DNA from: a virus
Reading direction: 5' to 3' (one strand)
IMG/VR virus record: IMGVR_UViG_3300044798_000503
Coordinates: 1 to 47,305 of that record
Length of the DNA: 47,305 nt
Part shown: positions 2,285 to 44,757 of the stretch, in pieces
Layout of the letters: the number at the start of each line of letters is the position of its first letter
Numbering within the stretch: position 1 is the stretch's first letter
Notes under the pieces: generated by a model
Told to the model about the DNA's origin: nothing
What the model saw: the letters and a program-made list of their open reading frames with translations, nothing else
The model's database searches: none
Position numbers and translations under genes: made by a program

Positions 2285-3880
2285 TTATTCTCTTCCCGGC
2301 CACACCACCGCCGCTTCGGCCGGGTCCGGCGGCGTACCGTCGATCGCCAGACTGACGACGGCCGAGTTTTCCGAGTATACCCACTCGGGCGCCTCGATCG
2401 TCCCGTCGTTCCGCCGGACCTGGACCCGGATTTTCACGACGGTGACGCCGCCGGTGATCGTGATCGGCACGTCCAACACGTCGAGTCCCCGGCGGGAGAG
2501 CGCCGGCGTCTCCGCCGGATCGTCCGCAGCGGGGTCACTTCCATCGACGGTGTAGGAATAGGCCCACTCGTCGGCGCGGACGGCCGCCGCGTCGGCATAG
2601 AGTGCCGACAGGCGGACCGCCAGCGGCGCGGTCTGCACCAACTCGACATTCCGCGGGGCGGCCGGCGGCTGGCCGACCACCCCAGAGCCCGCGTCGAATC
2701 GCAGACACGTCTCACCATGCGGGCCGATCGGCAGGAAACCGCTGTCCAGGACGCCGTTGAAATAACTCACGGAAACATACCACGGGCCGGCCGTCCAGTC
2801 CTCGTCGGTCGTCAGCGGCAGTGTCGCCGAGGTGGCGAATGGCGAATCGGACTCGGCCGGCGGGCCGCTCGACGATCGGTAGAACCGGAACTCGGCCGCG
2901 TTGAAAATTCGATACAGGCCCCGAAACTCGGCCCGGCACCCGCGCGGGATGGGCTTCGAGACGATGGACCGGCCCGGGCGCAATCGGCGGGGCTGCCGGT
3001 GGGGACCGGCGATGGGACTTATAGGAGCCATAGGACCCATAAGTCCCATCGGTCCTATCGGTCCCATCGGGTTTCGGCCGTGGCGGACCGCTCGGCCCAA
3101 TCGCCTTTTGGCACTAATCGCCCCGACGAACGGCACCGGTCCGACTCCGAACAGCCGCCGCCGCGGCGGGACGATCAACCCGGAGAGCATCACGTTCGAC
3201 GGGTCGGCCAGGGCGGTCATCTCGCCGCGGCTGAGAACGCGGTCCCAGCGAAGCGCATCGCTAATCGCGCCCAACCAGTAGAGCCCGGCGTAATCGCCGG
3301 CCCGGCCGAGCGTCGGGGACCCGCCCGCGATTCTGGCTCCGACCGTTCCTCCGATCGGCAGACCGTTGAAGTACCCGGTAAACGGATAATAGGCGTAGTG
3401 GTAATCGAGGACCGTCCACCCCAGACACATCCAGTCCGTATCGACGTTCGGACCGACCGCATCAACTCCGTAGCTCTCACCCAGAGACACGACCCATTTT
3501 CCGCCTATGGTAAATAGACAATATGTCGCATCGCCGTCGCTTTTGACGTCAGCCCAAGTGTAGCGCCTTTCGGCCGGGACCGAGGTCTTCGCCCAGAGCA
3601 TTCCGGAAGAGGCCCGGCCGACCTGCAAATTAGGCAGGGTCGGCACCGGCAGATAAGCGGCCCCGTCGAAGTTGATCATAAAGCGGCCCAATTCCGGCGC
3701 AAAGTCCCACTCGCCGGCCGGGTCGGCGAAGCCGATCAGCAGGCCGTTGCGTCGAAACGGCGACGAGTCCGCATAGCGACCCGAGAACGCGCACCCGTGA
3801 CCAGCCAGGCCCGCAAAACAGAGTCCCTGAAACAGGCTGCTGGCGGGATTGAGCGTGAAGTGTTCGGGGCGTTGTCGCAT
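2285..3880 (-). CDS. LamG/concanavalin-like tail protein, putative receptor binding (531 aa)
   Basis: About residues 60-225 have the features of a LamG/pentraxin jelly-roll: a solvent-exposed YFNGLPIGG strand, then GAISDALRWDRVLSRGEM, which matches the family's closing G-x-I-D-x-x-x-x-W-x-R-x-L-S signature. Such domains bind sugars and are common in tail fibres. Residues about 268-290 are collagen-like (GPIGPMGLMGPM), encoded by a 9-bp tandem repeat. The C-terminal 200 residues look fibronectin-like (TVDGSDP, TPALSRRGLDVL). The start at 3880 follows a family A element and has no SD. Receptor binding is inferred from the fold and the position at the tail tip. Confidence 0.75.
   Translation of the reverse strand: MRQRPEHFTLNPASSLFQGLCFAGLAGHGCAFSGRYADSSPFRRNGLLIGFADPAGEWDFAPELGRFMINFDGAAYLPVPTLPNLQVGRASSGMLWAKTSVPAERRYTWADVKSDGDATYCLFTIGGKWVVSLGESYGVDAVGPNVDTDWMCLGWTVLDYHYAYYPFTGYFNGLPIGGTVGARIAGGSPTLGRAGDYAGLYWLGAISDALRWDRVLSRGEMTALADPSNVMLSGLIVPPRRRLFGVGPVPFVGAISAKRRLGRAVRHGRNPMGPIGPMGLMGPMAPISPIAGPHRQPRRLRPGRSIVSKPIPRGCRAEFRGLYRIFNAAEFRFYRSSSGPPAESDSPFATSATLPLTTDEDWTAGPWYVSVSYFNGVLDSGFLPIGPHGETCLRFDAGSGVVGQPPAAPRNVELVQTAPLAVRLSALYADAAAVRADEWAYSYTVDGSDPAADDPAETPALSRRGLDVLDVPITITGGVTVVKIRVQVRRNDGTIEAPEWVYSENSAVVSLAIDGTPPDPAEAAVVWPGRE
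3012..3072. repeat. 9-bp tandem repeat encoding collagen-like GPx
   Basis: Degenerate repeats of TCCTATCGG/TCCCATCGG in frame inside the LamG-like gene. They are read as Gly-Pro-Ile/Met triplets (coding strand minus). Related GGTCCTGTC repeats occur near 10,296 and 10,410. Confidence 0.85.
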
Positions 3881-3887
3881 GTGGATT

Positions 3888-3941
3888 GTGGAAGCGGCAT
3901 CCTGCCGCTTCTGAAACCACGCGGCAGGATGCCGCGTCTAC
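3888..3941. repeat. Family A palindromic element, hetero-armed
   Basis: Left arm GTGGAAGCGGCATCCTGCCG, right arm ending GGATGCCGCGTCTAC. Each arm is a small hairpin and the two arms also pair. It fills the gap between two tail genes. Confidence 0.9.
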
Positions 3942-4935: not shown

Positions 4936-4949
4936 GGGGAACTCCAGAG

Positions 4950-5024
4950 GGGTCAGGGGTCAGGGGTTAGGGGTCGGGGGTCAGGGGTCAGGGGTTAGGG
5001 GTCGGGGGTCAGGGGTCAGGGGTC
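4950..5024. repeat. Heptamer array (GGGGTCA)n with variants
   Basis: About ten units of GGGGTCA, some as GGGGTTA or GGGGTCG. The left end provides the TGA stop of the gene ending at 5016, whose last residues (CDP) are themselves encoded by the array. Confidence 0.9.
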
Positions 5025-5663
5025 GCAAAAGTCAATATACACGATGTTGCGAACCTTCGGATCGGCCGGCGACTCGGCCGGAATCGTCCGGCGGAAATAA
5101 ATCCTGCCGTTTCCGCCCGCCGCGATCGGAGCCATGTGCAGGGCCTGCGATGGGTCGGTCGGTGCGCTGTAGCTCGATCCGTTGACGCTGATTTCCAGGT
5201 CCGGCGTCGCCGGATCGAGCCAGAGGTACGGGTCGATCCGATGGTCGCCGTTGTTGACCAGGAGGGTTTCGGAGTATTCGATCTGGCCGGCCAGTGCATC
5301 CTCGGCAGTCACGTCCGCATCGCAGGGCATCGCGCCATAGCAGTCGCGCAGCAGGACCTCGGCCGAGTCGCCGTAGGTCTGGAGAAAATCGGCGTAGATC
5401 TCGAGCTGGACCCATCGGTCTTCGTCCAGGCCGCACAGGTCGGCCGAGGCGCCGTCGATCGGGACATCCAGGCCCGGCACATCGCCCGGCGGCTGCCAGG
5501 CGAGCAGCAGGGCCTCGCCGTCGGTCCGGTATGTCAGCCGTCCGGTGCCAGGCCGGTTCCGGCCCGCCGCGCGCAGCACGCGGACGCCGGCAGGCGCGCC
5601 CAAAACGGCCGGCTCGCCGTAATAGGCGTCGACGAATCCCATTTGTAGGTCGAAAGCGGGCAT
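5016..5663 (-). CDS. Tail-region protein, unknown (215 aa)
   Basis: The start is taken at the ATG at 5663, directly at the end of a family A element. A longer frame exists upstream, but its extra residues only translate the repeat (DAASCRV...RQDAAST). There is no SD, because the element occupies the entire 65-nt spacer. The protein begins MPAFDLQMGFVDAYYG and is beta-rich with three Cys (DLCGLDED, DCYGAMPCD). It shows no recognised domain. The stop codon lies in the GGGGTCA array. Position among the tip and fibre genes suggests a virion component. Confidence 0.72.
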   Translation of the reverse strand: MPAFDLQMGFVDAYYGEPAVLGAPAGVRVLRAAGRNRPGTGRLTYRTDGEALLLAWQPPGDVPGLDVPIDGASADLCGLDEDRWVQLEIYADFLQTYGDSAEVLLRDCYGAMPCDADVTAEDALAGQIEYSETLLVNNGDHRIDPYLWLDPATPDLEISVNGSSYSAPTDPSQALHMAPIAAGGNGRIYFRRTIPAESPADPKVRNIVYIDFCDP

Positions 5664-5664
5664 G

Positions 5665-5729
5665 GTAGACGCGGCATCTTGCCGCGTTTCTTTGTTTCTT
5701 TCGGGGACGCGGCAAGATGCCGCGTCTAC
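5665..5729. repeat. Family A palindromic element, homo-armed
   Basis: A 65-bp element with arms GTAGACGCGGCATCTTGCCG and the near-perfect reverse complement around a T-rich loop (TTTCTTTGTTTCTTTC). It overlaps the TAG stop of one gene and ends one base before the ATG of the next, so it is the whole spacer. Confidence 0.93.
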
Positions 5730-6271
5730 TATGAAAACGTCAATTCTTCCTCCGCCCAGTCGATCTCGAACGCCGGGGAGTCCGGCGTCCTCACCACCAG
5801 GTCGGTCACGGCCGCCAAGGCCGTCTCGTTGCCGGCATCGTCCAACGCGACGACCCGCCAGGCATATTCCGTCAAATCGTCCAGCCGATCGGATGTCCAG
5901 GTGTAATACCACCGTCCAAGCTCCGCCTGGATCCAGGCCACCGCCGTCCACGCCCCGCCTGCCTTTTGCTCGTCGATCCGGTACTTGACGCACGTCGGAT
6001 CGAGCGACCGGATCCAGCCGATCGTCCGGCGGGCGCCGTACACGTCCGGGCCGTCCGACTCGGGATCGAAATCGGCGTCGATCGTATCGACCACCTCAAG
6101 CCGGGCCTGGTCGCCCTTGGCGAGTTGGAAACTCTTCGAGCCGGTCGGCGTCGACCCGCGGTAGATGCCGTCGAGCCACCAGTGGAACCAGACGGGGGCC
6201 GTCAGGTCGCTGGTGACCAGGACGCGGGTCACGTCGCCGTGCCGGGTGGCGGTTTGGGCGGTGATGGTCAT
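5729..6271 (-). CDS. Fibronectin type III-like tail protein (180 aa)
   Basis: The start is the ATG at 6271, immediately after a family A element; the longer frame upstream merely translates the element. The C-terminal half (about 95-175) has the FnIII pattern: CVKYRIDE, WTAVAW, YTWTSDRLDDLTEYAWRVVA, DDAGNETA. FnIII domains are common in tail-tip and host-recognition proteins. The N-terminal part (LTAPVWFHWWLDGIYRGST) is another beta domain. There is no SD. The TAG stop shares bases with the next family A element. Confidence 0.75.
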   Translation of the reverse strand: MTITAQTATRHGDVTRVLVTSDLTAPVWFHWWLDGIYRGSTPTGSKSFQLAKGDQARLEVVDTIDADFDPESDGPDVYGARRTIGWIRSLDPTCVKYRIDEQKAGGAWTAVAWIQAELGRWYYTWTSDRLDDLTEYAWRVVALDDAGNETALAAVTDLVVRTPDSPAFEIDWAEEELTFS

Positions 6272-6272
6272 G

Positions 6273-6326
6273 GTAGACGCGGCTTCCAGCCGCGTTCTTT
6301 CCGAAGCGGCAGGATGCCGCTTCCAC
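6273..6326. repeat. Family A element, hetero-armed (CTTCCAG/CATCCTG)
   Basis: The left arm is GTAGACGCGGCTTCCAGCCG; the right arm ends GGCAGGATGCCGCTTCCAC. The left arm swaps A-T for T-A inside its own stem (GGCTTCCAGCC against GGCATCCTGCC), a compensatory difference. It is the complete gap between two tail genes. Confidence 0.93.
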
Positions 6327-6327
6327 T

Positions 6328-6693
6328 TCACTCCTCCGTCTTGACGCAATGTACTTGCACCATACCGCGGCTATTGGTCACGCCCGGCCTGATCGCGCCG
6401 ACGATCTGGGCGTTGCCGACCTTCTCGATCAATACGGTGTCGTTCTGGTTCAGGTCGTTCGTGATGTCGGCCATCGTGCCGACCAGGACGGCCAGGTCAT
6501 CCGCCCAAATGAGCACGTTTTCCAGGTCGTCGTATTTGACGGCCACCAGGACGAAAGGCGTCCCCTTGTATCCGCAAAGCAAGGCCCCCTCGCCGTTGAT
6601 CCCCGGCGTGTGCCACCGTTCGATCTGCTCGTCGCATCGCTGCGGAATGACGCCGTGGACGAAATCGCAGGTCACTTCGCCGATCTTGGCCAT
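6328..6693 (-). CDS. Tail protein downstream of the tape measure, unknown (121 aa)
   Basis: An intact small frame with ATG at 6693, preceded by a heptamer array and CCCCC, with no SD. The sequence (ICDEQIERWHTPG-like start, YDDLENVLIWADDLAVLVG, NDLNQNDTVLIEKV) suggests a compact alpha/beta protein with no membrane segment. In siphophages the gene next after the tape measure is usually a distal-tail or tail-tip adaptor, and position alone supports that here. No family is recognised. Confidence 0.72.
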   Translation of the reverse strand: MAKIGEVTCDFVHGVIPQRCDEQIERWHTPGINGEGALLCGYKGTPFVLVAVKYDDLENVLIWADDLAVLVGTMADITNDLNQNDTVLIEKVGNAQIVGAIRPGVTNSRGMVQVHCVKTEE

Positions 6694-6694: not shown

Positions 6695-6747
6695 GGGGCT
6701 ATCAGCTTTCAGCTATCAGCTTTCAGCGGTCAGCTTTCAGTTTTCAC
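6695..6747. repeat. Heptamer array (TCAGCTA/TCAGCTT)n
   Basis: About seven units between the tape-measure stop and the next gene; the array supplies the sequence around the stop codon. Confidence 0.88.
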
Positions 6748-8423
6748 TTGTCGGCATTTGCCGGAACGCCGAGGCTCGGCTCGGGTCGGTTGTTGTCGAT
6801 GATGGCATCGGCGGCGACCTTCATTCTGACTGAAGCCTCGGTCAGCTTATCGACCGATGGCTGGAAGCGTGATGGGTCGTCTCGGGCTAGGTATTTTGCG
6901 CTCTGACGGGCGGTCGCGACCTCCTTCTCACTGAACGTTCCCTCGGGAGCACTCTCCACATCGACGACATACCCGTGCAATACCGACTGTTGGCTTTGTG
7001 TTGCGTAATTGATTCGTGTCGCGACGCCTCCAAAAAGGCCCCGTCTCGCCATCCGGTGGGCCAGAATTGATTGGGCAAGTGTGGTACGAGTTCCCGTTTG
7101 CTCCGCATTGAACATCTTAAGTGCCGCATCGGCGACCCGTTTCCCTCTGGCCGCTTGTATTTGCGGATCGTCCGACTCTTTAACGAGAGCGGCGCCCTCG
7201 GGATCGGCCTTTTTCACGCGGTCGAGCGTTTCGGCATTTTGCGGCGTGGCGACGATCAGCGCCTCCAAGGCGCCCGTGCTATCGACCGCGAGCCGCTCGG
7301 GCGGCGTCAGTTGCCCTAACCTCTCCACCATCTGGACAGGCGTCAGCCCGGTCAGGTCCACCCCAACGCCGATCCTGGCCAGGGCCGCCCGGCCTTCGTC
7401 CGACATATCACTCGGCATCTCCCCGCCGCCCCGCATCGCCGTGATCGTCTGGTACAACCTCTGCATCCCCTGCGCGGCGCGCGCTCCACGTTGCCGCATG
7501 ACGGTGCCCGTTGCCGCCAGGTTCTCAGTCGGACTGAAGCCAGCGTTTCGCGCCGCCGAGGCCGTCTTCGCCCCGGCCGTCAACAAAGCTTCGTACTGAT
7601 CGGTCGGTACTCCCGTCGCGGCGGCCTGGGATACGATCGCGCGTTGGCTGCCGGCCTTTCCTTTGTTGGCTTCGGAGTATGCGGCCGAGGCACGGACCAC
7701 ACCTCCGACGTTCGGAACGCCCGCGGTTCCCGCCAATTCCTCAAAGAACCTCTGGTCGGCTGGCTTCGTGCCCGCCGAAATCATCTCCGCCCTGATGCCG
7801 GCGGCCTGATTCTCGTCAATTCCCGCCGAGGCCGCGAACTTCCGGGCCGACTCGACGGCCTTCGTAGAATCGCCCCCGGCCGCTCGCACCTGAATTTCCA
7901 GGGCCTTCATCGGGGATTCCGATTCCTGGACCGTTTTCGCCGCCTCCTTCTTACGCTCGGCCATCATGTCCAAAAACTTCAGCGCCGCCGCGGCGGCCGT
8001 CCCGACTCCCACCAGCCCGATCGCAAACTCCTTCAACTGTCCGATGGCCTGGGCACCGAAAGCCCCAACACGGGCGTGCCCCGCCTTCTCGAGGGCCCCG
8101 GCCGTCCCCTCCGTCGCCTGCCGCGCCCGCTCCTGCGCCTGACCCACCGCCCGGCCGTAGGTTTCCGCGTCGATTTTCCCAGCCTTCAGCAGCTCCGAAC
8201 ACTGCGCCTGCTTCGCCAGGAATTGCTCCTGCGGCGTGCGGGTCTCGGTGTAGATCCGCTTCGCGGCGTTTTCGAGCTTCCCGGCGGCGTCCGCCGCATC
8301 CTTGTTGGTTTCGGCGACCTTCTTGAGGCCCTGCTCGAGTTCGCCCGTACCCCGAGCCAGCCGCTGAATCGCGGTCCAGGCGCGGGACTCGTCGGCAGAC
8401 ATTTCGATTGTTACGCCGGCCAT
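6744..8423 (-). CDS. Tail tape measure protein (559 aa)
   Basis: A long Ala/Glu/Lys-rich helical protein. The N-terminal coiled-coil segment (about 1-110: ADESRAWTAIQRLARG, EQGLKKVAETNKDAADA) is followed by one hydrophobic helix, LKEFAIGLVGVGTAAAAALK (about 128-147), as typical of tape-measure proteins. The C-terminus is again charged and helical. The family spans the tail lumen and sets tail length; 559 aa is short and would imply a tail of roughly 80 nm. The start at 8423 has no SD and is preceded by an inverted heptamer array. Confidence 0.85.
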   Translation of the reverse strand: MAGVTIEMSADESRAWTAIQRLARGTGELEQGLKKVAETNKDAADAAGKLENAAKRIYTETRTPQEQFLAKQAQCSELLKAGKIDAETYGRAVGQAQERARQATEGTAGALEKAGHARVGAFGAQAIGQLKEFAIGLVGVGTAAAAALKFLDMMAERKKEAAKTVQESESPMKALEIQVRAAGGDSTKAVESARKFAASAGIDENQAAGIRAEMISAGTKPADQRFFEELAGTAGVPNVGGVVRASAAYSEANKGKAGSQRAIVSQAAATGVPTDQYEALLTAGAKTASAARNAGFSPTENLAATGTVMRQRGARAAQGMQRLYQTITAMRGGGEMPSDMSDEGRAALARIGVGVDLTGLTPVQMVERLGQLTPPERLAVDSTGALEALIVATPQNAETLDRVKKADPEGAALVKESDDPQIQAARGKRVADAALKMFNAEQTGTRTTLAQSILAHRMARRGLFGGVATRINYATQSQQSVLHGYVVDVESAPEGTFSEKEVATARQSAKYLARDDPSRFQPSVDKLTEASVRMKVAADAIIDNNRPEPSLGVPANADK

Positions 8424-8429
8424 GGGAGA

Positions 8430-8503
8430 GCTTTCAGCTATCAGCTATCAGCTATCAGTTATCAGCTATCAGCCGTCTTGCTGATAGCTGATAGCTGATG
8501 GCT
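8430..8503. repeat. Inverted pair of heptamer arrays
   Basis: Five to six TCAGCTA units, a GCCGTCTTG centre, then three TAGCTGA units. The transcript or single strand can fold into a long hairpin. It lies directly upstream of the tape-measure start. Confidence 0.88.
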
Positions 8504-8554
8504 ACTCGGTTTCGAGCCAACGGAGATCGGTCACCGTGGGGCGGTAGCCCCTAT

Positions 8555-9421
8555 CTAAACCGGCCCGCCAGCGCTGCCATTCAAGGCGCCGCCGGCCGGG
8601 ATGGGCGACGTATCGGCCGTTTTTTTTTGAAGCCAATCGAGCCGCGTCCCATAGTCCGTCAGCACGTCCAAGACCGCCCGGGCCAGCGCCGGGGTGAGGA
8701 TCCCGAGCATCGCCGCCTCGGTCCGGCCGATCCGGTAGTTTTGCGCCAGGCAGACCACGGCCGAGTCGACGAGATCGTCAAACTCGAAAACGACGGTAGA
8801 AGAGGCATCCTGCCTCTTGTCGGGGAAGCGGCAGGATGCCGCTTCTACGCTGGCCAGGATCGCGGCGTCCCTGGCCTCGTCCCACCGCAGGGCGAGGTCC
8901 CAGAGCGCCGCGAATCGGGCCGGCGTCGCCCCCCGGGTCCACTTTCCGGCATCGTCCAGTTCCAGCGGCGCCGGCAGCCGGTGCAGCCAGCGGAGTTCGC
9001 CCTCCTCCTCGATCCACCCGCGTGCGATGGGGCAGAGCCAGTCGGCCCCGTCGAAGAGCCGAACCCACTCGCCGGCAAGCTGCTCGGGCCGGGCCAGTTC
9101 GGCCGGGCAGGGCCTGCAATCGCGTAGGAGGCCGATCCAGGGGCGCAAAGTGGAAGCGGCATCCTGCCGCTTGGTTCCAGAGAAGAGGCAGGATGCCTCT
9201 TCTACGACCGCCAGGGGCCGCCACGTTTGTTTATCGGGCCAATAGCCGATGTCGCCGGCCGAGTCACGACCGAAACAGGCGATGGAGCCAGGTGAACCAT
9301 CCGGACCGGCGGAAACGCCGCGTAAGGACCACGGCTCGGCCACGGCATGGGCCAGGCCCAGGGCCGCGATCTCGGCCAGGGTCGTTGAGGGTCCGGCGGA
9401 TGGGAGGTAATAGAGGAACAT
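8555..9421 (-). CDS. Tail protein with two in-frame family A insertions (288 aa)
   Basis: Lies just upstream of the tape measure, in the slot often held by tail assembly or tape-measure chaperone genes. The protein has no recognised family; the N-terminus is MFLYYLPSAGPSTTLAEI, with Trp-rich central sequence (GEWVRLFDGADWLCP). Residues about 73-91 (VEEASCLFSGTKRQDAAST) and 192-209 (VEAASCRFPDKRQDASST) are plain translations of family A palindromes inserted without breaking the frame. Removing both leaves about 250 aa with sensible joins. The ATG at 9421 abuts another family A element and has no SD. Confidence 0.72.
   Translation of the reverse strand: MFLYYLPSAGPSTTLAEIAALGLAHAVAEPWSLRGVSAGPDGSPGSIACFGRDSAGDIGYWPDKQTWRPLAVVEEASCLFSGTKRQDAASTLRPWIGLLRDCRPCPAELARPEQLAGEWVRLFDGADWLCPIARGWIEEEGELRWLHRLPAPLELDDAGKWTRGATPARFAALWDLALRWDEARDAAILASVEAASCRFPDKRQDASSTVVFEFDDLVDSAVVCLAQNYRIGRTEAAMLGILTPALARAVLDVLTDYGTRLDWLQKKTADTSPIPAGGALNGSAGGPV
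8796..8848. repeat. Family A element inside a coding region
   Basis: A 53-bp hetero-armed element (GTAGAAGAGGCATCCTGCCT ... GGCAGGATGCCGCTTCTAC) read in frame on the minus strand as VEAASCRFPDKRQDASST. Confidence 0.92.
9150..9205. repeat. Family A element inside a coding region
   Basis: A 56-bp hetero-armed element (GTGGAAGCGGCATCCTGCCG ... GGCAGGATGCCTCTTCTAC) read in frame as VEEASCLFSGTKRQDAAST. Confidence 0.92.
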
Positions 9422-9422: not shown

Positions 9423-9480
9423 GTGGAAGAGGCATCCTGCCTCTTTGCAAGAGGAAAGCGCGGCAGGATGCCGCGGCCAC
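9423..9480. repeat. Family A element, hetero-armed
   Basis: Left arm GTGGAAGAGGCATCCTGCCT, right arm GCGGCAGGATGCCGCGGCCAC. It starts one base after the ATG complement of one gene and ends at the stop of the next. Confidence 0.9.
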
Positions 9481-10289: not shown

Positions 10290-10501
10290 GGTATTGGTCC
10301 TGTTGGTCCTGTCGGTCCTGAGTTTTGAGGGACTCACAGTACGGGTTCCTCTTCTCTGTTCGCGCCGAAACAGAGAAGAGGAATCCGTACTTACTTGGGT
10401 ACGGTCATGGTATCGGTCCTGTCGGTCCTGAGTTTTGAGGGACTCACAGTACGGGTTCCTCTTCTCTGTTCGCGCCGAAACAGAGAAGAGGAACCCGTAC
10501 T
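10286..10501. repeat. Tandem duplication (about 115 bp) containing two family B hairpins
   Basis: Two copies of a segment: CATGGTATYGGTCCTG, 9-bp GGTCCTGTC repeats, GAGTTTTGAGGGACTCAC, then a GTACGGGTTCCTCTTCTC hairpin. One hairpin spans 10338-10391 (one mismatch, GAATCC), the other 10448-10501 (perfect). The upstream copy still carries a CATGG matching the gene's start codon. Confidence 0.9.
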
Positions 10502-11187: not shown

Positions 11188-11256
11188 AGAGAGGGGTCAG
11201 GGGTTGGGGGTCAGGGGACGGGGGACGGGGGACGGGGGTCAGGGGTCAGGGGTCAG
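11188..11256. repeat. Heptamer array (GGGGTCA / GGGGACG)n
   Basis: Mixed GGGGTCA and GGGGACGG units filling the gap between two tail genes. The left part provides the TGA stop of the gene ending at 11253. Confidence 0.88.
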
Positions 11257-12167
11257 GAAATCGCCGAGCCGGCGACGATCAGGAGCGGTGCATTGCTCCC
11301 GTCGTAGGCCAGCGGCATCCGCACGGTCACCTCGCCGGCGTCCCGGGCCGATCCGCGGAAGGCGTCCTCCACCACTGCGAAGCCGCAAGCGGTGAACTTC
11401 ACGTGGTAGGCCTGGTTGTTCTCCACGAACGTCCCGCCGGGGGCACGCCGGCGGAGGAAAACCTTCGTGTTCGCATGGGTGGCGAGCTTGCCGAGGAGCG
11501 GGATGTTCGCCGCCTTGAGCCACTCGACGTCGATCCCGCCGAGCGTCAGCACGGTCTGCTGCTGCCGGATCGAGACGAAGGTCGCCCAGATCTCGGAGTC
11601 GGCCGACTCGGCCAGGATGTCCAGGCCGAAATCGACCTGAAAACTCTTCAGTTCGCCGAGCGAAACGCCGCCGATCGACGCGGGGCCGAGCGTGTACCGC
11701 TCAGCGTCGGCGCTGCCGGAGGGCAGCGTCGCGCCGTCGGTCACCACGACCGGCGCGTTTTGCCCGTCGTACGAGATCACCGCGTCGACCGTAAGGGTCG
11801 CGTCGCCCCGGTGGTTCACCGAGAGCGTTTTGGGCGCGACGATCCCGGACGCGAACCCGAAGCTCCGGTGCCCGGAACTCGCCCGCCCGCCCTCGGGCTG
11901 GTGCTTTTGTGCGTATAGCGTCATGCCGCCCAGCGTGCCGATCGAGGCCCCGCTCGCCCCGAGCAGCCCCAGCGCCGTCCCGACCGCCATCGTGGCGAAA
12001 CTCGGGCTGACCTGTTGGGCGTACAGGGCCTGGATGGCGGCCCATACCTCGCCCGAGGTCGCCTCGCCCCGAACGTCGCTCCCGGTGGCGATGTCCTGGC
12101 GGGTGATCCCGCCGAGGACCGTCGAGCCGAGGGAAATGCCGTAGATTCCGTGTTTGCGGTCGATCAT
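11253..12167 (-). CDS. Putative major tail tube protein (304 aa)
   Basis: About the size of siphophage tube proteins, and placed after the head-tail connectors and before the small chaperone-like gene. The N-terminal 90 residues mix helix with Gly/Ala-rich segments (FATMAVGTALGLLGASG). The rest is beta-rich (TLTVDAVISYDGQ, GVSLGELKSFQVDFGLDI, TVRMPLAYDGSNAPLL), as expected for a tube beta-barrel. No sheath protein is seen, so a non-contractile tail fits. The ATG at 12167 has no SD, and its leader is CCTCCC preceded by heptamers. The assignment is by position and composition, not a clear motif. Confidence 0.6.
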   Translation of the reverse strand: MIDRKHGIYGISLGSTVLGGITRQDIATGSDVRGEATSGEVWAAIQALYAQQVSPSFATMAVGTALGLLGASGASIGTLGGMTLYAQKHQPEGGRASSGHRSFGFASGIVAPKTLSVNHRGDATLTVDAVISYDGQNAPVVVTDGATLPSGSADAERYTLGPASIGGVSLGELKSFQVDFGLDILAESADSEIWATFVSIRQQQTVLTLGGIDVEWLKAANIPLLGKLATHANTKVFLRRRAPGGTFVENNQAYHVKFTACGFAVVEDAFRGSARDAGEVTVRMPLAYDGSNAPLLIVAGSAIS

Positions 12168-12588: not shown

Positions 12589-12597
12589 GGGAGGAGA

Positions 12598-12627
12598 AGG
12601 GGTCAGGGGTCAGGGGTCAGGGGTCAG
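12598..12627. repeat. Heptamer array (GGGGTCA)n
   Basis: Four units; the left end supplies the stop codon of the 67-aa gene at 12624. Confidence 0.88.
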
Positions 12628-12827
12628 GCGTCGGTTTCCGTGACTTGGACGGACACATTCACCGTCCACTTCTTGCCGGCAGGGACCTCGGCGTCCAGAT
12701 TCGTGGCCGGATTCATGATCGGGCCGGAATAGACCCACAGGTGTTTTCCGGCCGCCAGTTCGATCGTCTGCGCGCCGAACCGCCGGATGCGAGGGGCGGC
12801 GACGGTGTCGAGGACTGCGAGTTCCAT
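12624..12827 (-). CDS. Small virion-associated protein, unknown (67 aa)
   Basis: A compact beta-type sequence: RRFGAQTIELAAGKHLWVYS, then VPAGKKWTVNVSVQVTETDA. Similar short proteins with an A-G-K-x-W-x-V-x-V strand pair occur in head-tail modules. The upstream gap holds one family A arm. The ATG at 12827 is preceded by GAAAGGACG, an acceptable SD. Likely real because it fits snugly between neighbours and has an ordered coding pattern; function unknown. Confidence 0.68.
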   Translation of the reverse strand: MELAVLDTVAAPRIRRFGAQTIELAAGKHLWVYSGPIMNPATNLDAEVPAGKKWTVNVSVQVTETDA

Positions 12828-14481: not shown

Positions 14482-14509
14482 GGGCAAACTCCTTCGTTTA
14501 TTTGGGCCA

Positions 14510-14572
14510 TCAGCTATCAGCTTTCAGCTATCAGCTTTCGGCTGACGGCTGATAGCTGATGGCTGATGGCTA
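14510..14572. repeat. Inverted pair of heptamer arrays
   Basis: TCAGCTA/TCAGCTT units followed by GCTGACGG/GCTGATAG/GCTGATGG units, able to form a hairpin in the spacer. Confidence 0.87.
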
Positions 14573-15100
14573 AATTGTCACCGTTTCACTTTCGCCGCCG
14601 GAGCGGAGAAGCTGGTCGAGCTTCCGGTCCACCACGGCGCATGCCTGTTCGAGGTCGCGTTCGGACACGTCGCGCAATTCGCCGGCCATGTCGATGGGCG
14701 AGTGCGGGTTTTGCAAATTCGCCTTTTGCGCGGCCGGCAGGAAAATCCGCACGGTCGAATGATCGCTCGTACTCACCGCCTCGACGCGGTGCAGCCGGAC
14801 CAGCGAGCGGAGTTCGCCGGTCAATTCGAGCGGACGCGTATGGCCGTATCGCCGCAGTTTTCGGCCGGTATACGAGGTCCAAAAGTTCTTCGTCGTCCGG
14901 CCGCTCTCGCCGCTCCGCGGCGTGTAGCCGTATTCCGCCGCGCCTTCGCGGCTGAATTTCTTCTCCAAAAACCGCGCGTGCAGGTCTTCGCCGGCCTCCG
15001 ACCAGGCCTCGCGCTTCATCGTGTTCCACTGCCGGACCGTCACCTCGTTGGGACGCGGGACAAAACCGTCGTATTGGACGCTGATCGTTCCGAGGAACAT
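14570..15100 (-). CDS. Putative tail completion / head-tail joining protein (176 aa)
   Basis: A basic, helical protein: NTMKREAWSEAGEDLHARFL, then KNFWTSYTGRKLRRYGHTRPLELTGELR. The block ending R-P-L-x-L-T-G-x-L-R is typical of phage virion-morphogenesis / tail-completion proteins (gpS or HK97 gp10-like), in which a 'tGeLr' turn is conserved. Length and position (after the head-tail connectors, before tail proteins) agree. The ATG at 15100 has no SD; the leader is a heptamer array. Confidence 0.65.
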   Translation of the reverse strand: MFLGTISVQYDGFVPRPNEVTVRQWNTMKREAWSEAGEDLHARFLEKKFSREGAAEYGYTPRSGESGRTTKNFWTSYTGRKLRRYGHTRPLELTGELRSLVRLHRVEAVSTSDHSTVRIFLPAAQKANLQNPHSPIDMAGELRDVSERDLEQACAVVDRKLDQLLRSGGESETVTI

Positions 15101-15107
15101 TGAAAGC

Positions 15108-15186
15108 CCTCAGCTATCAGCTATCAGCTATCAGCTATCAGCGGAGGCCGTCCGGCTGCTAGCTGATAGCTGACTGCTGATAGCTA
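15108..15186. repeat. Inverted pair of heptamer arrays
   Basis: Four TCAGCTA units, a GGAGGCCGTCCGGC centre that is itself palindromic, then TAGCTGA-type units. A long hairpin is possible; it fills the spacer. Confidence 0.9.
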
Positions 15187-15720
15187 CAGCCCCGTCCAAT
15201 CCACGGCCAGTTCGACCCCTTGCCAAACGCCCTGGGCGGGCGCGGCCTTCGGATGGTTCCAAAATGGCCCGGCGGTGACGGCCAGCGCCGTGAAGGCCAG
15301 ATAGCCGGCCTTGCCGCTCGACGCCAAAAGGTCCTCGATGATCTGGCCGATCGTGTTGCTCCATTGGAGATTTGCATCGCTCGACGGCTCGTCGGTCAGG
15401 GCGTCGGGACAATTCTGATACAACCGCGCCACCAATCGGCCGGCCCGCTGATACTCGAATCCGTCGCCGGCCGCCTCCAAGGTCGCGCGGAAGCCGTTTT
15501 GCTCCGCCGCAAACACCACTGCATAGGGCCGGTATGTCTGCAACTCGGCCAGCGTGTACTCGCGGCCGTTTGCCGGCCCGGGCAACCCGTGATGATGGAT
15601 CCGGGCCAGGGCCTCGGCCTGGTTGTCGGCGTCGAGCCACGTCCGGGCCGCCGTCGAGTCGGCCAGGGCCGTGCGGAAGTACTCGGCAGCCAATGACAGC
15701 GGTCCGGCGGGGGAGGTCAT
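15184..15720 (-). CDS. Head-tail connector region protein, unknown (178 aa)
   Basis: A mostly helical soluble protein starting MTSPAGPLSLAAEYFRTALA. The block ALARIHHHGLP (about 37-47) and the Trp-rich C-terminus (TAGPFWNHP, VWQGVELAVDWTGL) are distinctive. The plan (N-terminal helices, C-terminal beta strands) resembles small adaptor or stopper proteins, but no signature is definite. It sits between the capsid-proximal genes and the tail-completion-like gene. No SD at 15720. Confidence 0.7.
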   Translation of the reverse strand: MTSPAGPLSLAAEYFRTALADSTAARTWLDADNQAEALARIHHHGLPGPANGREYTLAELQTYRPYAVVFAAEQNGFRATLEAAGDGFEYQRAGRLVARLYQNCPDALTDEPSSDANLQWSNTIGQIIEDLLASSGKAGYLAFTALAVTAGPFWNHPKAAPAQGVWQGVELAVDWTGL

Positions 15721-15849: not shown

Positions 15850-16032
15850 TCAGTTTGCGTGTTCGATGTGCCGATTCAGCCGCGTCTCGAAGATGTCGCT
15901 CCGGCGCTCGACCGCATCGAGTCGGGCCGCGATCTTGCCGCCCCAGTAGATCGCCGTGCCGATCTGGACGCAGACGGCGACCAGGACGGTCGCCGCTGCG
16001 CCCCAGACGTGTCTCCTCCAGCAGTCGTTCAT
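15850..16032 (-). CDS. Small single-span membrane protein (60 aa)
   Basis: An N-terminal membrane segment (WGAAATVLVAVCVQIGTAIY, about residues 10-29) is followed by an amphipathic, charged helix (AARLDAVERRSDIFETRLNR). This type-I-holin-like or Rz-like outline is found in several phage accessory proteins. Placement inside the head-tail operon is odd for lysis genes, so I leave the function open. ATG at 16032 is preceded by a heptamer array with no SD. It is short but has a clear segregated hydrophobicity pattern. Confidence 0.62.
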   Translation of the reverse strand: MNDCWRRHVWGAAATVLVAVCVQIGTAIYWGGKIAARLDAVERRSDIFETRLNRHIEHAN

Positions 16033-16033
16033 C

Positions 16034-16119
16034 GGAAGCTCTCAGCTTTCAGCTATCAGCAGTCAGCAGTCAGCAGTCAGCCTCTGGCTGATAGCTGATA
16101 GCTGATAGCTGATAGCTCC
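16034..16119. repeat. Inverted pair of heptamer arrays
   Basis: TCAGCTT/TCAGCAG units, a TCTGG centre, then four TAGCTGA units; it fills the gap to the next gene. Confidence 0.88.
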
Positions 16120-16122
16120 CTG

Positions 16123-16506
16123 TCACCTTCTCCTATAGCCCGGCCGGGCCGCCTCGGCCACGCCTCGGCGCACCAACTTGACCGTCACCATTGACCCGCA
16201 GGCGCCGATGATCGACTCGACGGCATACTCCACGTCGTCGATCGTCACCACCGCGCCCAGGGCGGGCAGGCCTGAGGCGAACAGGTCGCCGACGCGCCGG
16301 GGAAAACACGCCTCGCGGACCTGCCGGTGCTCCCGGCCGTCCTCGCCGGCCGATTCCTCGGTCTGCTCGGCGCCCAGGATGACCTGCGTCTGGCCGGGCG
16401 TGGTCGAGAGCGGGGCCAGGTACTCGGCGTCCTCGCCCTCGGCCAGGTGAGTCATCAGCGCCGGGGCGGCGTAGGTGAGAAACAGCGAGTCGAAGTTCGA
16501 GGACAT
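16123..16506 (-). CDS. Putative head-tail joining protein (127 aa)
   Basis: Lies immediately after the major capsid gene, where lambda carries FI/FII. N-terminal helix MSSNFDSLFLTYAAPALMTH, a central acidic loop with EQTEESAGEDGREHRQVREA, and C-terminal strands (AVVTIDDVEYAVESIIGACG, MVTVKLVRR). The pairing 'v-t-I-d-d-v-e-Y-x-V' is typical of stopper or joining proteins built on a small beta barrel. No SD at 16506; the leader is a heptamer hairpin. Confidence 0.65.
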   Translation of the reverse strand: MSSNFDSLFLTYAAPALMTHLAEGEDAEYLAPLSTTPGQTQVILGAEQTEESAGEDGREHRQVREACFPRRVGDLFASGLPALGAVVTIDDVEYAVESIIGACGSMVTVKLVRRGVAEAARPGYRRR

Positions 16507-16507
16507 G

Positions 16508-16588
16508 GCTGTCAGCCATCAGCGATCAGCTATCAGCTAGGATCCTTCGGCTGAAAGCTGATAGCTGAAAGCTGACAGCCGACCTATC
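16508..16588. repeat. Inverted pair of heptamer arrays
   Basis: TCAGCCA/TCAGCGA/TCAGCTA units, an AGGATCCTTC centre, then GCTGAAA/GCTGATA units. It overlaps the stop of the capsid gene. Confidence 0.88.
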
Positions 16589-17570
16589 AGGTGGTCGTGA
16601 TGTTCGACAGCAGGTAGGCCGCCGCGACGTACAAAAGCTTCTCGTCGGTCTGGTTGCGCACCCGCACGATGTCGCTCCGGACCGTCTCGTCGCGATAGGT
16701 CTCGACCGTGCCGCCGATCTGCGAGCCGTCGGCGCCCCAGTGGAACGTCCGGCCGAGTCCGGGTTCGCGGAGGTCCGGGCCCGTACAAAGCCGGGCCACC
16801 ATCGCGTACTCGTCGCTCCAGATGGGCGACAGACTGCGGGTCTGCGCCTCATTGGCCGTGTTCTTGGCGCTGCCGGCGACCAGGACGTAATCCAGGTCGA
16901 AGCAGCGGGCCAATTGGTCGGCCGTGATGTCGCGGGCGCGGATCGAACTGCCGGCACCGCTCGAGGCGATCGCGTCGGTGATCTGGTCGAGAGCGCGAAG
17001 GTTGTTCATGACCTTCTTATTTATGATCAGCGCATTGGCCCACAAACCGGTGGCCGACCAGATCGCATTGCGGGCCGTGTTCACGTTCGAGAGCGGCACC
17101 GCATCGGTCTTGTGGTTGGCGTCCCATTCGTTGGTGACCGCGGCGGTGTAGGACGCGAAGGTCGTCGCGTTGAACACCGCGTCGGCGACCCGCTTCTCGT
17201 GGCTGCGAAGCACGATGTCCAGCGCCCGGGCGGCCGAGACCGTTTCGAGGTCGAAGTAGTTCGCGTACATCTTCGCCTCGTTGTCGTCGATCGGCTCTTC
17301 CCAGCCGTGTTCGACCGTGGCGTAAGTGTCCGTGGTGAAGGCCCAGTCGCCCCGGCCGTATCCCGCGCCGGGCGCCCGCTTGGTCTCGGGCGATTGCAAG
17401 AGCGATTCGAGCGTGATCTTGCCGAACGGGCTCGAGGCCAGGTCGGTCTCGAAAACGGGCAGGACCCGGAGGCCAATGAACCCCTGGCGGTCGGCCAAGA
17501 GGTCGATCTGCTCGAGGCTGGCGGCCAGGTCCGGCCGCAGGGTGGCGAGGGAGGTGGAGGGATGACCCAT
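16587..17570 (-). CDS. Major capsid protein (327 aa)
   Basis: Size, acidic N-terminus and order (after the decoration protein, before joining genes) match the lambda gpE / HK97-fold capsid group. Supporting segments are PVFETDLASSPFGKITLESL (N-arm), TYATVEHGWEEPIDDNEAKM (the 'E-loop' style segment), a long helix RALDIVLRSHEKRVADAVFN, and the C-terminal P-domain strands ETVRSDIVRVRNQTDEKLLY. No signal or membrane segment. Good SD AGGAG 9 nt before the ATG at 17570. It should be one of the most highly expressed genes and has no repeats inside. Confidence 0.88.
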   Translation of the reverse strand: MGHPSTSLATLRPDLAASLEQIDLLADRQGFIGLRVLPVFETDLASSPFGKITLESLLQSPETKRAPGAGYGRGDWAFTTDTYATVEHGWEEPIDDNEAKMYANYFDLETVSAARALDIVLRSHEKRVADAVFNATTFASYTAAVTNEWDANHKTDAVPLSNVNTARNAIWSATGLWANALIINKKVMNNLRALDQITDAIASSGAGSSIRARDITADQLARCFDLDYVLVAGSAKNTANEAQTRSLSPIWSDEYAMVARLCTGPDLREPGLGRTFHWGADGSQIGGTVETYRDETVRSDIVRVRNQTDEKLLYVAAAYLLSNITTT

Positions 17571-18581: not shown

Positions 18582-18591
18582 CGGGACTCCA

Positions 18592-18646
18592 GAGTTCGGG
18601 GGACGGTGGACGGGGGACGGGGGACGGGGGTCAGGGGACGGGGGTC
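18592..18646. repeat. Mixed GGGGACG / GGGGTCA array
   Basis: About seven units in the gap between the decoration and protease genes. Confidence 0.85.
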
Positions 18647-19061
18647 ATTTCGCGTTCGAGGCGGCGACGAAATCCGCATGTAGGGACGGATTCTCGCGGA
18701 CCAACTGGCGGACCGCCCGGGCGCGATCGCCGTTGCAGGCGGTCAACTTCTCGGCCAGGGCCTTTTGCCAGGCCTCGACGGCATCGCTGCCGGTCTCGCC
18801 GGCGAGCGCGCCGGCGGCGGTCGCTCCGCCCAAGGTCGGCAAGCCCGCCGCCGAGGCGGCAAGCTTCGCCTGGGCCGTTTCGGCCTGGGCCGCACGGATC
18901 CGGCGGTCCTGCTCGGCCATCCAGGCGGTCTGGGCGGCGGCCAGCGTGGCGGCGACCTCGAGTTGCTCGCACAGGAACCCGGCGTCGGCGCCGGGCAGGC
19001 CGGCCTTCAGGTCCGCATAGGAGGCGGGGGCACTGGGGGTAATTGCAGACTCGGTCGACAT
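18645..19061 (-). CDS. Nested internal-start scaffold protein, Nu3-like (138 aa)
   Basis: An in-frame ATG at 19061 (MSTESAITPSAPASYADLKA) is preceded by AAGGA 9 nt upstream, inside the S49 protease gene. The product would be the acidic, Ala/Glu-rich helical tail of the protease. In lambda the scaffold Nu3 is made this way from the 3' end of gene C. The internal SD is visible; its use is inferred. Confidence 0.6.
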   Translation of the reverse strand: MSTESAITPSAPASYADLKAGLPGADAGFLCEQLEVAATLAAAQTAWMAEQDRRIRAAQAETAQAKLAASAAGLPTLGGATAAGALAGETGSDAVEAWQKALAEKLTACNGDRARAVRQLVRENPSLHADFVAASNAK

Positions 19062-19964: not shown

Positions 19965-20564
19965 GAGAAAGTCAGTCTGCCGAAAAACGGCGGCCAGTCG
20001 GAAGAGAACACGCCCCGGATTCGCCGGATGCGGAAGGGGGCGGAAGAGGGGAGACGATGAGAATACGGGTTCCTCTTCTCTGTTCGCGCCGGAATAGAGA
20101 AGAGGAACCCGTATTCTCCCGCATGGGGGTAGTTTGCGCGCAGAATACCCCCAGGGCAGCAGAATACCCCCAGGCAATGCCGGAAGTGATGGACGCTTAA
20201 GGGGTTAGGACGTTCGCAACGGCATGTCAGATAGTCGCGTGCTCATGCCGGCCATTCTTGCACGCGACACACTTGCCGTGTTGTCGCCGGTCGTTCGCCG
20301 GTCGCGCGACCGGCGAAGAAACCCCGGAAACCACGGGAAATTCCACTATGGGAATTTTTTCGCCGGTCGTTCGCCGGTCGCTTGGCCGGTCGCTTTCCGC
20401 ATGGCTTCAACCACGGGCATAATCGCCGAGAGTTGGTAAAGATAGCGCGGTTCCCGCGGTTTCGGAAGAGAAGAAATGACCGGATGTACCCCTTAAGATA
20501 CCCCCGGGCGCCGCATCAATTGTCGGGGAAAATCAGGTCCACACCCTTTCCCGGAAATTTGCGC
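19965..20564 (-). other. Gene-free leader between portal and protease, with nested inverted repeats
   Basis: Six hundred bases without a convincing gene. It contains a family B hairpin (20061-20116), two ATACCCCCAGG copies (about 20143-20172), CTTAAGGGGT (from 20199) matched by ACCCCTTAAG (about 20490), a perfect 24-bp palindrome at 20294-20317, a repeat of CGCCGGTCGTTCGCCGGTCG at about 20285 and 20350, and a GGGAAATTCC/GGGAATTTT imperfect repeat. It may be a structured mRNA leader, a small RNA or the remains of an insertion. Confidence 0.6.
20061..20116. repeat. Family B hairpin (AATACGGG variant)
   Basis: A near-perfect hairpin with GAATACGGGTTCCTCTTCTC and its complement ending GTATTC. 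Compared with other copies both ends change together (AATAC/GTATT), a compensatory difference. Loop GTTCGCGCCGGAATAG. Confidence 0.93.
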
Positions 20565-26329: not shown

Positions 26330-26339
26330 GGGGAACTCC

Positions 26340-26419
26340 AGGGTACGGGGGACGGGGGACGGGGAACGGGGGACGGGGGACGGGGGTCAGGGGTCAGGGG
26401 TCAGGGGTCGGGGGTCAGG
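26340..26419. repeat. (GGGGACG / GGGGTCA)n array
   Basis: About eleven units in the gap between the small gene's SD and the methylase's stop; GACGGGG units precede TCAGGGG units. Confidence 0.88.
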
Positions 26420-27819: not shown

Positions 27820-29886
27820 TCACCTCTCACTGACCAAAAACGGCCGACCGTCCGGCATCACGATCGGACTCGGGGAGTCGTCGGAAGGAGAAGAGGAAAG
27901 AGGCAGGATGCCTCTTCTACTCTGAATCAAACGCACGCCGGCCAGGTGCCCCGCCCAACAGGCGTTGTATGTCGCGTCGAGATAGTGGTTGGCCTTTCTG
28001 GCGCGCTCCCAAATCACCTTCTCGCCGACACCTTCGATGAAGATCTCGCGGGGCCGCTCCGCCGTGATGTGTTGCGACCAGGTGATATGCTGGTTCGGAT
28101 CGCGGGACTGGTAGAGCTCGAAGGCGCCCGGCTCGCCGGCGGGCGTCCGGAGCCGGTCGTGAAGCCATGTCTTCCAAAAGTCCGCGCATACGTCGGCGCG
28201 GAAGAGCCGCTCGGTCGGCATCCAGGAAATGTAGTACTCCTGGCCGATCGCACGGACCGCCGCGCCGAGCTTGGTAGGGTGCGTATAGGTCCGATAGCGC
28301 CGGTCATAGGCCGAGAGTCCCCGGCCGAGCGCCGGGATGTAACGCCGGCCGGCCTGGCGGCAAAACTCGTACACCGCCTCCGGCATGTACCCCGCGTCGA
28401 TCGACACGGGGTTCGGTATGAGAAGTTCGCCCCCCGGCTTCCGCCAACCCGGCTCGATCACCTGCTCGCGGAGGTCGGACAAGGCGGCCAGGACCGCCCG
28501 GGCTATGTCCATCGTATCGCCGGCGATGTCGAACCGGCCGTAATCGACCAGGTGGCCGCGGGCGTCAGGTCGCCAGGCGACCAGCACCCAGTGGCCGAGC
28601 CGCTTTCCCAGGTCGATCCCCATCGTGAGCCGCTCCGCGTCCTGGGGCACCACGCCGCAGGTGAGCGACTCGGCGGCGACCCGCTTGCGGATGACGTGCG
28701 GATCGAGCGGGCTGGTGTCTAAAAGCGGCGGCTGCCAGGGCATGACCCAGACGAACTGAAACATCTCCCGTTCCGCCGCGTCGTAGTCGGGGGCAACGCG
28801 GGCGGACCATTCTCGGGCGCCCAGCTCGCCGGCAGTCCAAAATAGGTTGTGAAAGGCCGTCCAACGAATCGAAAGCGTGTCCACGTCGGGCGGGTCGCCG
28901 ACGGCGCGGCCGCGGGCGTTGACCGTCTGGCCGCGATGGACTACCACCGCGCGGGTCACCATCCGTCGGCGCTCCGCGGCGGTGATTGCGACGCCGCAGG
29001 CGGGGCAGGCGAAGTGGGCCAGCCGGCGGGCGACCTCCTTCGACGCCGCCTGCTGCCAACCAAGCAGGTGCTCTCGCTCGGGCAGCACGTACTTGCGGCA
29101 GTGGGGGCACGGGCAGAGCAACTGGCTTCCGGTACCGGCCAGGAACTCGGTCCAGATCCGGCCGTGCGGGACCGAGACGGTACATTCGAGATAGATCCGC
29201 CGCTCGTCGGCAGGGTAGCGGCCGGTCCGGTTCTCAATCTGGCGGACCGGATCGGCCTCGCGCGAGAGCGCGGAGGCAGTGTCCATCTTGTCCACCTCCG
29301 TGAGCAGCACCACCCGGGCCGTATAGCTCGAGCGGTTCTCGTCGCCGCCGCCGGCGCTCATGAATTTCAACCGCGCGCCGTTGCCGAAGAGAAGCTCTTC
29401 GGCGAAGCCACCTTCGCTGCCGGCGCCGCGCCGAGGCAGGAACACGCGGTAACGCGAGGCGGCGATGACCGGCAGGACCTCTCCCATGAACTTGTCGCGG
29501 CAGATTTTGATCGTCGGGGCGGCGAGGATCACCGACTCGCGATGCTCGAAGAGCCAGAAGAGAGACTCGGCGCCGAGGCCGAGAAACGACTTGCCGGATT
29601 GCACGCAACCGACGAGGGCTTTGCGCGGCCAGCGATCGTCGTCCAGCGCCGCGAGGACCGGCACATTGAACGGCTGCACGTCGGGCCGCCAACGCGAACC
29701 GCGCGAGGGTCCCTTCGGGATCACCACCTCCTCGGCGACAAACTCGGCCAGGCTGCGGATGCGCGGCGTCCGAGAGCCGCGAAGCAGACCGCGCAACTCC
29801 GCGCGGCACGCTTCACCCAGCCGCACTTGGCTCGATACCGGTAGGACCATCAGCAGAAGCCAGGCGATCCAATTCACGTTGGGCAT
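27820..29886 (-). CDS. Terminase large subunit, GpA-like (688 aa)
   Basis: Packaging ATPase and nuclease. Walker A GCVQSGKS (93-100), Walker B VVLLTEVD (192-199), preceded by EELLFGNGARLKFMSAGG. A zinc-ribbon segment (LLCPCPHCRKYVLPE ... FACPACGVAITAA) lies at about 255-295, typical of GpA-type terminases. The nuclease-domain Asp (TMGIDLGKRLGHWVLVAW) is near 420. The first about 12 residues are hydrophobic and may be wrongly included; ATG 29850 is an alternative start. The C-terminal RRGILPLSSS is a translated family A arm (27898-27920). It overlaps the small subunit by 74 bp. Confidence 0.9.
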   Translation of the reverse strand: MPNVNWIAWLLLMVLPVSSQVRLGEACRAELRGLLRGSRTPRIRSLAEFVAEEVVIPKGPSRGSRWRPDVQPFNVPVLAALDDDRWPRKALVGCVQSGKSFLGLGAESLFWLFEHRESVILAAPTIKICRDKFMGEVLPVIAASRYRVFLPRRGAGSEGGFAEELLFGNGARLKFMSAGGGDENRSSYTARVVLLTEVDKMDTASALSREADPVRQIENRTGRYPADERRIYLECTVSVPHGRIWTEFLAGTGSQLLCPCPHCRKYVLPEREHLLGWQQAASKEVARRLAHFACPACGVAITAAERRRMVTRAVVVHRGQTVNARGRAVGDPPDVDTLSIRWTAFHNLFWTAGELGAREWSARVAPDYDAAEREMFQFVWVMPWQPPLLDTSPLDPHVIRKRVAAESLTCGVVPQDAERLTMGIDLGKRLGHWVLVAWRPDARGHLVDYGRFDIAGDTMDIARAVLAALSDLREQVIEPGWRKPGGELLIPNPVSIDAGYMPEAVYEFCRQAGRRYIPALGRGLSAYDRRYRTYTHPTKLGAAVRAIGQEYYISWMPTERLFRADVCADFWKTWLHDRLRTPAGEPGAFELYQSRDPNQHITWSQHITAERPREIFIEGVGEKVIWERARKANHYLDATYNACWAGHLAGVRLIQSRRGILPLSSSPSDDSPSPIVMPDGRPFLVSER
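27898..27920. repeat. Single family A arm inside the terminase 3' end
   Basis: AAGAGGCAGGATGCCTCTTC read on the minus strand near the C-terminus of terminase. Confidence 0.85.
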
Positions 29887-36555: not shown

Positions 36556-36608
36556 GTGGAAGCGGCATCTTGCCGCTTGTTATGGACGCGGCAGGATGCC
36601 GCGTCTAC
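36556..36608. repeat. Family A element, hetero-armed
   Basis: GTGGAAGCGGCATCTTGCCG, loop, then GGCAGGATGCCGCGTCTAC; spans the gap between the DUF5131 gene's stop and the Dam start. The TAG stop of DUF5131 lies inside it. Confidence 0.92.
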
Positions 36609-40824: not shown

Positions 40825-40878
40825 AGTACGGGTTCCTCTTCTCTGTTCGCGCCTGAACAGAGAAGAGGAACCCGTATT
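40825..40878. repeat. Family B hairpin
   Basis: AGTACGGGTTCCTCTTCTC, loop TGTTCGCGCCTGAACA, complement ending CCCGTATT (the terminal pair is not matched). It lies in the gap between the integrase stop and the 91-aa gene's SD. Confidence 0.92.
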
Positions 40879-40911
40879 CCCCCGGTGCCGTGGTGATGGC
40901 CCCGTTTTCTG

Positions 40912-44540: not shown

Positions 44541-44544
44541 CTGA

Positions 44545-44616
44545 GGCGCCGCCCGGATTCGAACCGGGGATGGCGGATTTGCAATCCGCTACTCTATTTT
44601 ACCGGGATATGGCCCC
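44545..44616 (-). tRNA. tRNA-Cys (GCA), degenerate 5' half
   Basis: Minus strand. Anticodon stem GCGGA/TCCGC with loop TTGCAAA, anticodon GCA at 44582-44580. T-arm CCCGG-TTCGAAT-CCGGG. Acceptor GGGGCCA against CGGCGCC has two mismatches, the D-arm pairs poorly, and CCA is not encoded (CAG). Either a worn tRNA or a trapped 3' half from an att site. Confidence 0.7.
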
Positions 44617-44686: not shown

Positions 44687-44757
44687 CGGCACCGAGGCAG
44701 TACGGGTTCCTCTTCTCTGTTCAGGCGCGAACAGAGAAGAGGAACCCGTACTGCCCC
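44687..44757. repeat. Family B hairpin with extended flank, left copy
   Basis: Core 44698-44753 is CAGTACGGGTTCCTCTTC with complement; the flanks (GCGGCACCGAGG, CCCC) also match the copy at 45773-45843. Loop TTCAGGCGCGAA is the reverse complement of the loop at 40825. Confidence 0.93.

Follow-up and report, generated by a model that had tools for sequence, protein, structure and literature searches.

Two GTAG-type REP dimers read in frame within a probable tail assembly gene of a phage, and a RAYT lineage flanked by the same repeats in bacteria

REP dimers of the GTAG type have been described inside bacterial genes, where they encode 20 to 30 residues, sometimes occur twice in one gene and are found most often in Opitutus terrae (Di Nocera et al. 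2013, PMC3733652). The same report describes GTAG ends that supply TAG stop codons to neighbouring genes, and gives RPE-4 and RPE-6 of Rickettsia as CGTC-tagged (PMC3733652). The Rickettsia RPEs (RPE-1, RPE-4, RPE-6; Ogata et al.) are palindromic selfish DNA that is translated in frame and tolerated as a loop (PMC2229807). In REPIN/RAYT systems, GTGG variants of the tag alter the choice of cleavage site (PMC3116915, PMC8266576). The present study concerns IMG/VR virus record IMGVR_UViG_3300044798_000503, a stretch of 47,305 bases analysed as a whole and called the window below, in which a tail gene reads through two elements of this kind.

The tail gene and its two inserts

The structural genes of the window form a lambda-like set; an integrase-like gene and a tRNA-Cys gene are also present. 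The gene with the two inserts lies between a tail tube-like gene (11253-12167) and a tape-measure-like gene (6744-8423).

8555-9421, minus strand: open reading frame of 288 amino acids carrying both inserts (reading frame, homologues, gene order)
9150-9205, minus strand: REP dimer insert 1, 56 nt, residues 73-91, a GTRG...CYAC dimer, VEEASCLFSGTKRQDAAST (alignment, pLDDT, folding)
8796-8848, minus strand: REP dimer insert 2, 53 nt, residues 192-209, a GTRG...CYAC dimer, VEAASCRFPDKRQDASST (pLDDT, folding)

The 288-aa protein belongs to no family in PHROGs or Pfam, and a PDB fold search gave nothing usable. Its best match in the BFVD viral fold search is a 'Tail assembly chaperone' (prob 0.99, E 7e-3), which fits the place of the gene between the tail-tube-like and tape-measure-like genes; the protein is probably such a chaperone, as far as a fold match can tell. 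A direct search of IMG/VR found no homologues. They were reached instead via the major capsid protein of related phages and then the genes neighbouring it. Five related phages carry a homologue (32-43% identity) beside the same tail genes in the same order, tail-tube gene, 288-aa homologue and tape-measure gene. All five align over the entire ORF, with 30 invariant columns kept.

A sequence-only reading had placed two complete elements in this gene, at residues of about 73-91 and 192-209, with the frame intact through both; the coordinates, the residues and the uninterrupted frame were all borne out. Insert 1 corresponds to a clean 19-residue gap in all five homologues, and the flanks align without gaps. 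In the homologue of locus L121, 8 residues separate two flanking tryptophans, versus 8 plus 19 in the 288-aa protein. The gene is thereby a net 57 nt longer, which is one base more than the 56-nt element itself. Insert 2 lies in a linker between two helices, variable in length and sequence, where the homologues align poorly, which makes the junction harder to place; all five lack the element peptide at this site. The inserted residues are thus absent from all five homologues; conservation in distant phages would have spoken for an old part of the fold. A copy of this phage with an empty site was not found, and the exact DNA junctions are therefore provisional.

The two inserts differ in their make-up. 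In gene sense, insert 1 has the GAGG-type arm first and the GCGG-type arm second, insert 2 has the GCGG arm first, and the spacers are different. Opposite arm order and different spacers indicate two separate insertions rather than a duplication. Both fold far better as single strands than shuffled sequences do (z of -7.4 and -7.7 for inserts 1 and 2, respectively). In an AlphaFold (AF2) model of the 288-aa protein, built from the six-sequence alignment (mean pLDDT 78), the only segments below 50 are residues 74-89 and 198-209 and the C-terminal tail, and most of the rest is above 75. The low values at both inserts are consistent with loops, although the gapped alignment columns contribute to them, and they are not proof.

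Copies of the element in the window, in bacteria and in other viruses

The arm of the element has the structure GTRG-[AC]-[AC]-GCGGCATCCTGCCGC, or a GAGGCATCCTGCCTC variant, and the dimer is a head-to-head pair of GTRG-tagged hairpins. GTAG or GTGG stands ahead of the GCGGCATCCTGCCGC-type hairpin, which has a perfect 6-bp stem and a 3-nt loop; the arm at 33591 has GTAA instead. The window holds 27 core arms, whereas 200 first-order Markov randomisations of it averaged 0.03 arms and none had more than 1; it also has 10 head-to-head dimers of 51-65 nt. By sequence definition, the element qualifies as a GTAG-type REP dimer and is REPIN-like.

Most arms in the window are intergenic; the only copies situated well within a gene are inserts 1 and 2, together with one arm at the C-terminus of the terminase. 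Coding density is high, and the in-gene copies therefore look like what strong selection has left. Other placed copies are the following.

9423-9480: intergenic third dimer of 58 nt, separated by 1 nt from the start codon of the 288-aa gene
6273-6326: dimer directly upstream of the ATG at 6270-6272 (minus strand); homologues of this gene mostly align from about that Met
5665-5729: dimer directly upstream of the probable start ATG at 5662-5664 (minus strand)
3888-3941: dimer lying 7 nt ahead of the ORF 2285-3880 start codon
36556-36608: intergenic dimer with its GTAG end at 36605-36608, from which ORF 36605-37360 (minus strand) takes its TAG stop codon
44214-44540: cluster of three dimers and one extra arm, adjoining the tRNA-Cys gene at 44543-44616
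27900-27914, minus strand: single arm read within the C-terminal tail (RRGILPL) of the large terminase subunit, immediately beyond the nuclease domain match that ends at residue 652

Four of these dimers (3888, 5665, 6273 and 9423) lie within a few bases upstream of start codons. The cluster beside the tRNA-Cys gene is possibly near an integration site. ORFs 5016-5993 and 5729-6349 were considered as further genes with inserts and rejected, since in both the element precedes the likely true start codon.

The window also holds other repeats. Arrays of a 7-base unit (TCAGCTA / TAGCTGA; 8427-8510, 14503-14571, 15098-15204, 16030-16132, 16493-16594 and others) give 25 matches on both strands, often directly upstream of start codons, and none was found in 863 kb of related phages. 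A near-perfect palindrome of about 55 bp (TACGGGTTCCTCTTCTCTGTTC...) occurs in six copies (10337-10391, 10447-10501, 20060-20116, 40825-40879, 44699-44753, 45786-45840), and its 22-base arm was found in none of 392 Planctomycetota genomes. GGGGTCA/GGGGACG heptad arrays lie near gene starts (4946-5031, 11190-11256, 12596-12634, 18590-18647, 26333-26418).

Outside the window, GTDB contigs contained the exact core of the REP element in over 117 stretches, most of them from Hydrogenedentota, Planctomycetota and Verrucomicrobiota. All 16 bacterial genomes inspected, which had been chosen by earlier hits, carry 1-31 exact core copies each. Few viruses have the element: IMG/VR yielded matches in only 4 contigs over two pattern scans. 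Two of these carry dimers, and there the elements appear to lie before start codons or between genes. No arm was found in 80 loci (863 kb) of related phages. A search for the host found capsid homologues of at most 42% identity in 294 Planctomycetota genomes and identified no host.

The same peptides were found as inserts inside unrelated bacterial proteins. Head-to-head dimers of the fetched loci that lie inside ORFs with domain or homology support form the in-gene set (n=12):

PabB/PabC (L020): one dimer
MmeI-type protein (L033): five dimers
HypF (L108): one dimer
HrpA-like helicase (L111): one dimer
PurL (L113): one dimer
Eco57I-type protein (L276): one dimer
288-aa tail gene of the window: two dimers

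Dimers in L006, L029, L062, L073 and L087, whose ORFs have no homology support, were left out of the in-gene count, and the L047 dimer, its placement unchecked, was excluded from both groups. In all 12 in-gene dimers the length is 2 mod 3 and translation follows one and the same frame, giving VEAAS...KRQDAAST-type peptides. This length was seen in only 4 of 15 other dimers (Fisher p=1e-4; p=0.001 with L033 counted once), the p values being descriptive as the groups were assigned after the data had been seen. The sequence-only reading had implied that the element is read without stops in the tolerated frame. The elements are indeed read through; however, most copies are stop-free in at least four of the six frames, so that openness alone does not account for the pattern and is not the filter. 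The filter is likely the net length (element plus one base, a multiple of three) together with a tolerated small polar peptide, as opposed to the hydrophobic SGILPL/GRMPLL readings. As a separate observation, the HypF gene of L108 (5407-7725, minus strand) carries its dimer around residue 195, with another candidate around 585, and a related HypF gene in L338 (82-3183, plus strand) holds a whole RAYT gene at about residues 447-690, a different place from the L108 insert.

RAYT genes and the origin of the inserts

A search of the window for a RAYT (REP-associated tyrosine transposase, TnpA_REP) found none (best E 0.52). In bacteria, the RAYT of L033 has dimers of the window's REP family on both sides, and that of L276 is also flanked by this family. 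The RAYTs of L221, L265 and L319 have arms nearby. Identity to the L033 RAYT is 63% for L319, 58% for L276, 53% for L265 and 50% for L221. Thus, a RAYT flanked by its own REPs, which defines a REPtron, occurs in the bacterial loci and not in the phage. Among the first 30 Y1 transposase loci, a matching REP was seen in only one, because the top matches were mostly short proteins of IS200 size; the link became apparent in nested ORFs and in RAYT loci of larger size. Different repeat families accompany many other RAYTs, which lie in other genes, as expected if each RAYT is paired with its own REP. To our knowledge, RAYT-mediated spread of REPs has had no full demonstration in vivo.

In our reading, which we hold to be very probable, the inserts are non-autonomous GTAG-type REP dimers that entered the tail gene separately, most likely in a prophage, moved in trans by a host RAYT, and were tolerated in loops. 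The phage would most likely have resided as a prophage in a host of planctomycete/verrucomicrobial type, whose RAYT would have supplied the transposase. With each insertion the gene would have gained a number of bases divisible by three, in the one frame whose product is a small, polar and flexible peptide (VEAASCR..KRQDAAST). The inserts may have survived because of their placement in loops, and the 288-aa protein would presumably still work.

The insertions could also have arisen by homologous recombination or gene conversion between repeats, or with host DNA, and no transposase would then be needed. The arms are near-identical throughout the window, and mixed GCGG/GAGG dimers could arise in that way. 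However, a unique coding site, an exact net gain of 57 nt and the absence of shared flanks call for an integration step, and RAYTs with the same REPs are present in several of the element-bearing genomes; we regard this route as improbable. The 288-aa gene might also be a pseudogene in decay, or a spurious ORF, with repeats that are open by chance: long spurious ORFs are common at 65% GC, several overlapping ones exist in the window, and most frames of the element lack stops. Nevertheless, the five full-length homologues, the shared gene order and the 30 invariant columns largely refute this explanation; the structure model is confident outside the inserts and the frame is still intact after two insertions, which leaves it very unlikely. 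Least credible is an adaptive role of the peptides, which might for example serve as a display loop or regulate the tail chaperone. Although one protein has the same peptide twice, both times in a predicted low-confidence loop, the peptide also occurs in the unrelated enzymes HypF, PurL, PabB/PabC, helicase and MmeI, is missing from the homologues, and most window copies are intergenic.

A further, unexpected observation concerns the RAYT genes of bacteria. The restriction-modification genes of L033 and L276 each form one uninterrupted frame with an entire RAYT gene and its REP arrays. Whole RAYT genes, accompanied by flanking repeat peptides, lie in a single open frame with the following genes.

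L033, 79-4734, plus strand: MmeI-type
L276, 2-4093, minus strand: Eco57I-type
L308, 3229-6132, plus strand: PriA; also PriA in L309, L322, L324 and L346 (five genomes with L308, the RAYT at the same linker in all)
L312: CCA-adding enzyme
L310, L330, L335: HsdR
L311, L315: Type IIG-like methylases
L313: DUF1156 protein
L328: exonuclease VII
L337: valyl-tRNA synthetase
L339: leucyl-tRNA synthetase
L338: HypF
L325: B12-binding radical SAM protein

The PriA match of L308 scores 885 bits against a curated cut-off of 813, though the RAYT splits the match into two stretches. Among 388 sampled genomes of Verrucomicrobiota, 51 of the 150 RAYT matches listed, about a third, lie in open frames 500 codons or longer, an upper estimate, since domain checks covered only part of the frames and GC-rich sequence lengthens frames. 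No report of in-frame nesting of RAYT genes was found in the literature, of which our coverage was incomplete. Other nested RAYTs (L311, L315, L310, L326, L337, L338) are flanked by in-frame repeat peptides of different sequence (SSDNPVA, TGIPACALPE, VAGASSS, VAQASS, VGQASRLSP, GRRDACDT), which suggests many REP-like families with coding-compatible sequence.

The chances appear about even to us that a PVC-type RAYT/REP lineage has adapted to in-frame life inside genes, some of them essential (PriA, LeuRS, ValRS, CCA-adding enzyme), besides HypF and Type I/IIG restriction genes. Its autonomous copies would be a RAYT with REP arrays, intein-like without splicing, and the dimers would be the non-autonomous end, able to reach phage genes. 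Nesting of the RAYT in essential ORFs could explain its persistence, as a crude deletion would damage the host gene.

Comparison with known systems

The sequence-only reading had likened the inserts to the palindromic elements of Rickettsia. As regards behaviour this likeness holds, since the elements are read in frame in conserved genes and are absent from homologues. On the other hand, they have neither a CGTC tag nor a long RPE-1-type palindrome: RPE-1-type elements are about 105-146 bp, whereas the window dimers are 51-65 nt, and CGTC repeats have no dedicated transposase, whereas the element here has a GTAG/GTGG tag and a linked RAYT lineage. The element therefore works like an RPE but is not classed as one. 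In-frame palindromic inserts are here tied to a transposase lineage, a link that is missing for the Rickettsia RPEs.

Of the known kinds, the GTAG-tagged REP dimer comes closest. The GTAG dimers of the Opitutus terrae type share with the window element the GTAG tag, a short perfect stem, head-to-head dimers, translated in-gene copies that can occur in pairs within a gene, GTAG ends that form stop codons of neighbours, and occurrence in the PVC superphylum, a likeness of described features in which the exact family is unmatched (PMC3733652). That report deals with bacterial chromosomes and nowhere mentions phages, while our case is a phage gene; the sections used here contain neither a net +1 nt rule nor a single-frame rule (PMC3733652). 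REPINs and RAYTs of Pseudomonas and E. coli share the inverted GTAG-REP pairs and a Y1 HUH transposase flanked by its own REPs (PMC3116915, PMC8266576). In contrast, those REPINs are essentially extragenic, and here the REPINs and RAYTs of one lineage often lie in frame inside genes.

Host repeats in frame in a probable viral tail-assembly protein, with homologues in the empty state, make the fitness cost of in-protein selfish DNA testable in a fast-growing system. Taken against the described systems, in-gene REP dimers (Opitutus terrae) and Rickettsia RPEs were already known; what is new is the phage gene, the empty-site homologues and the link to a RAYT lineage.
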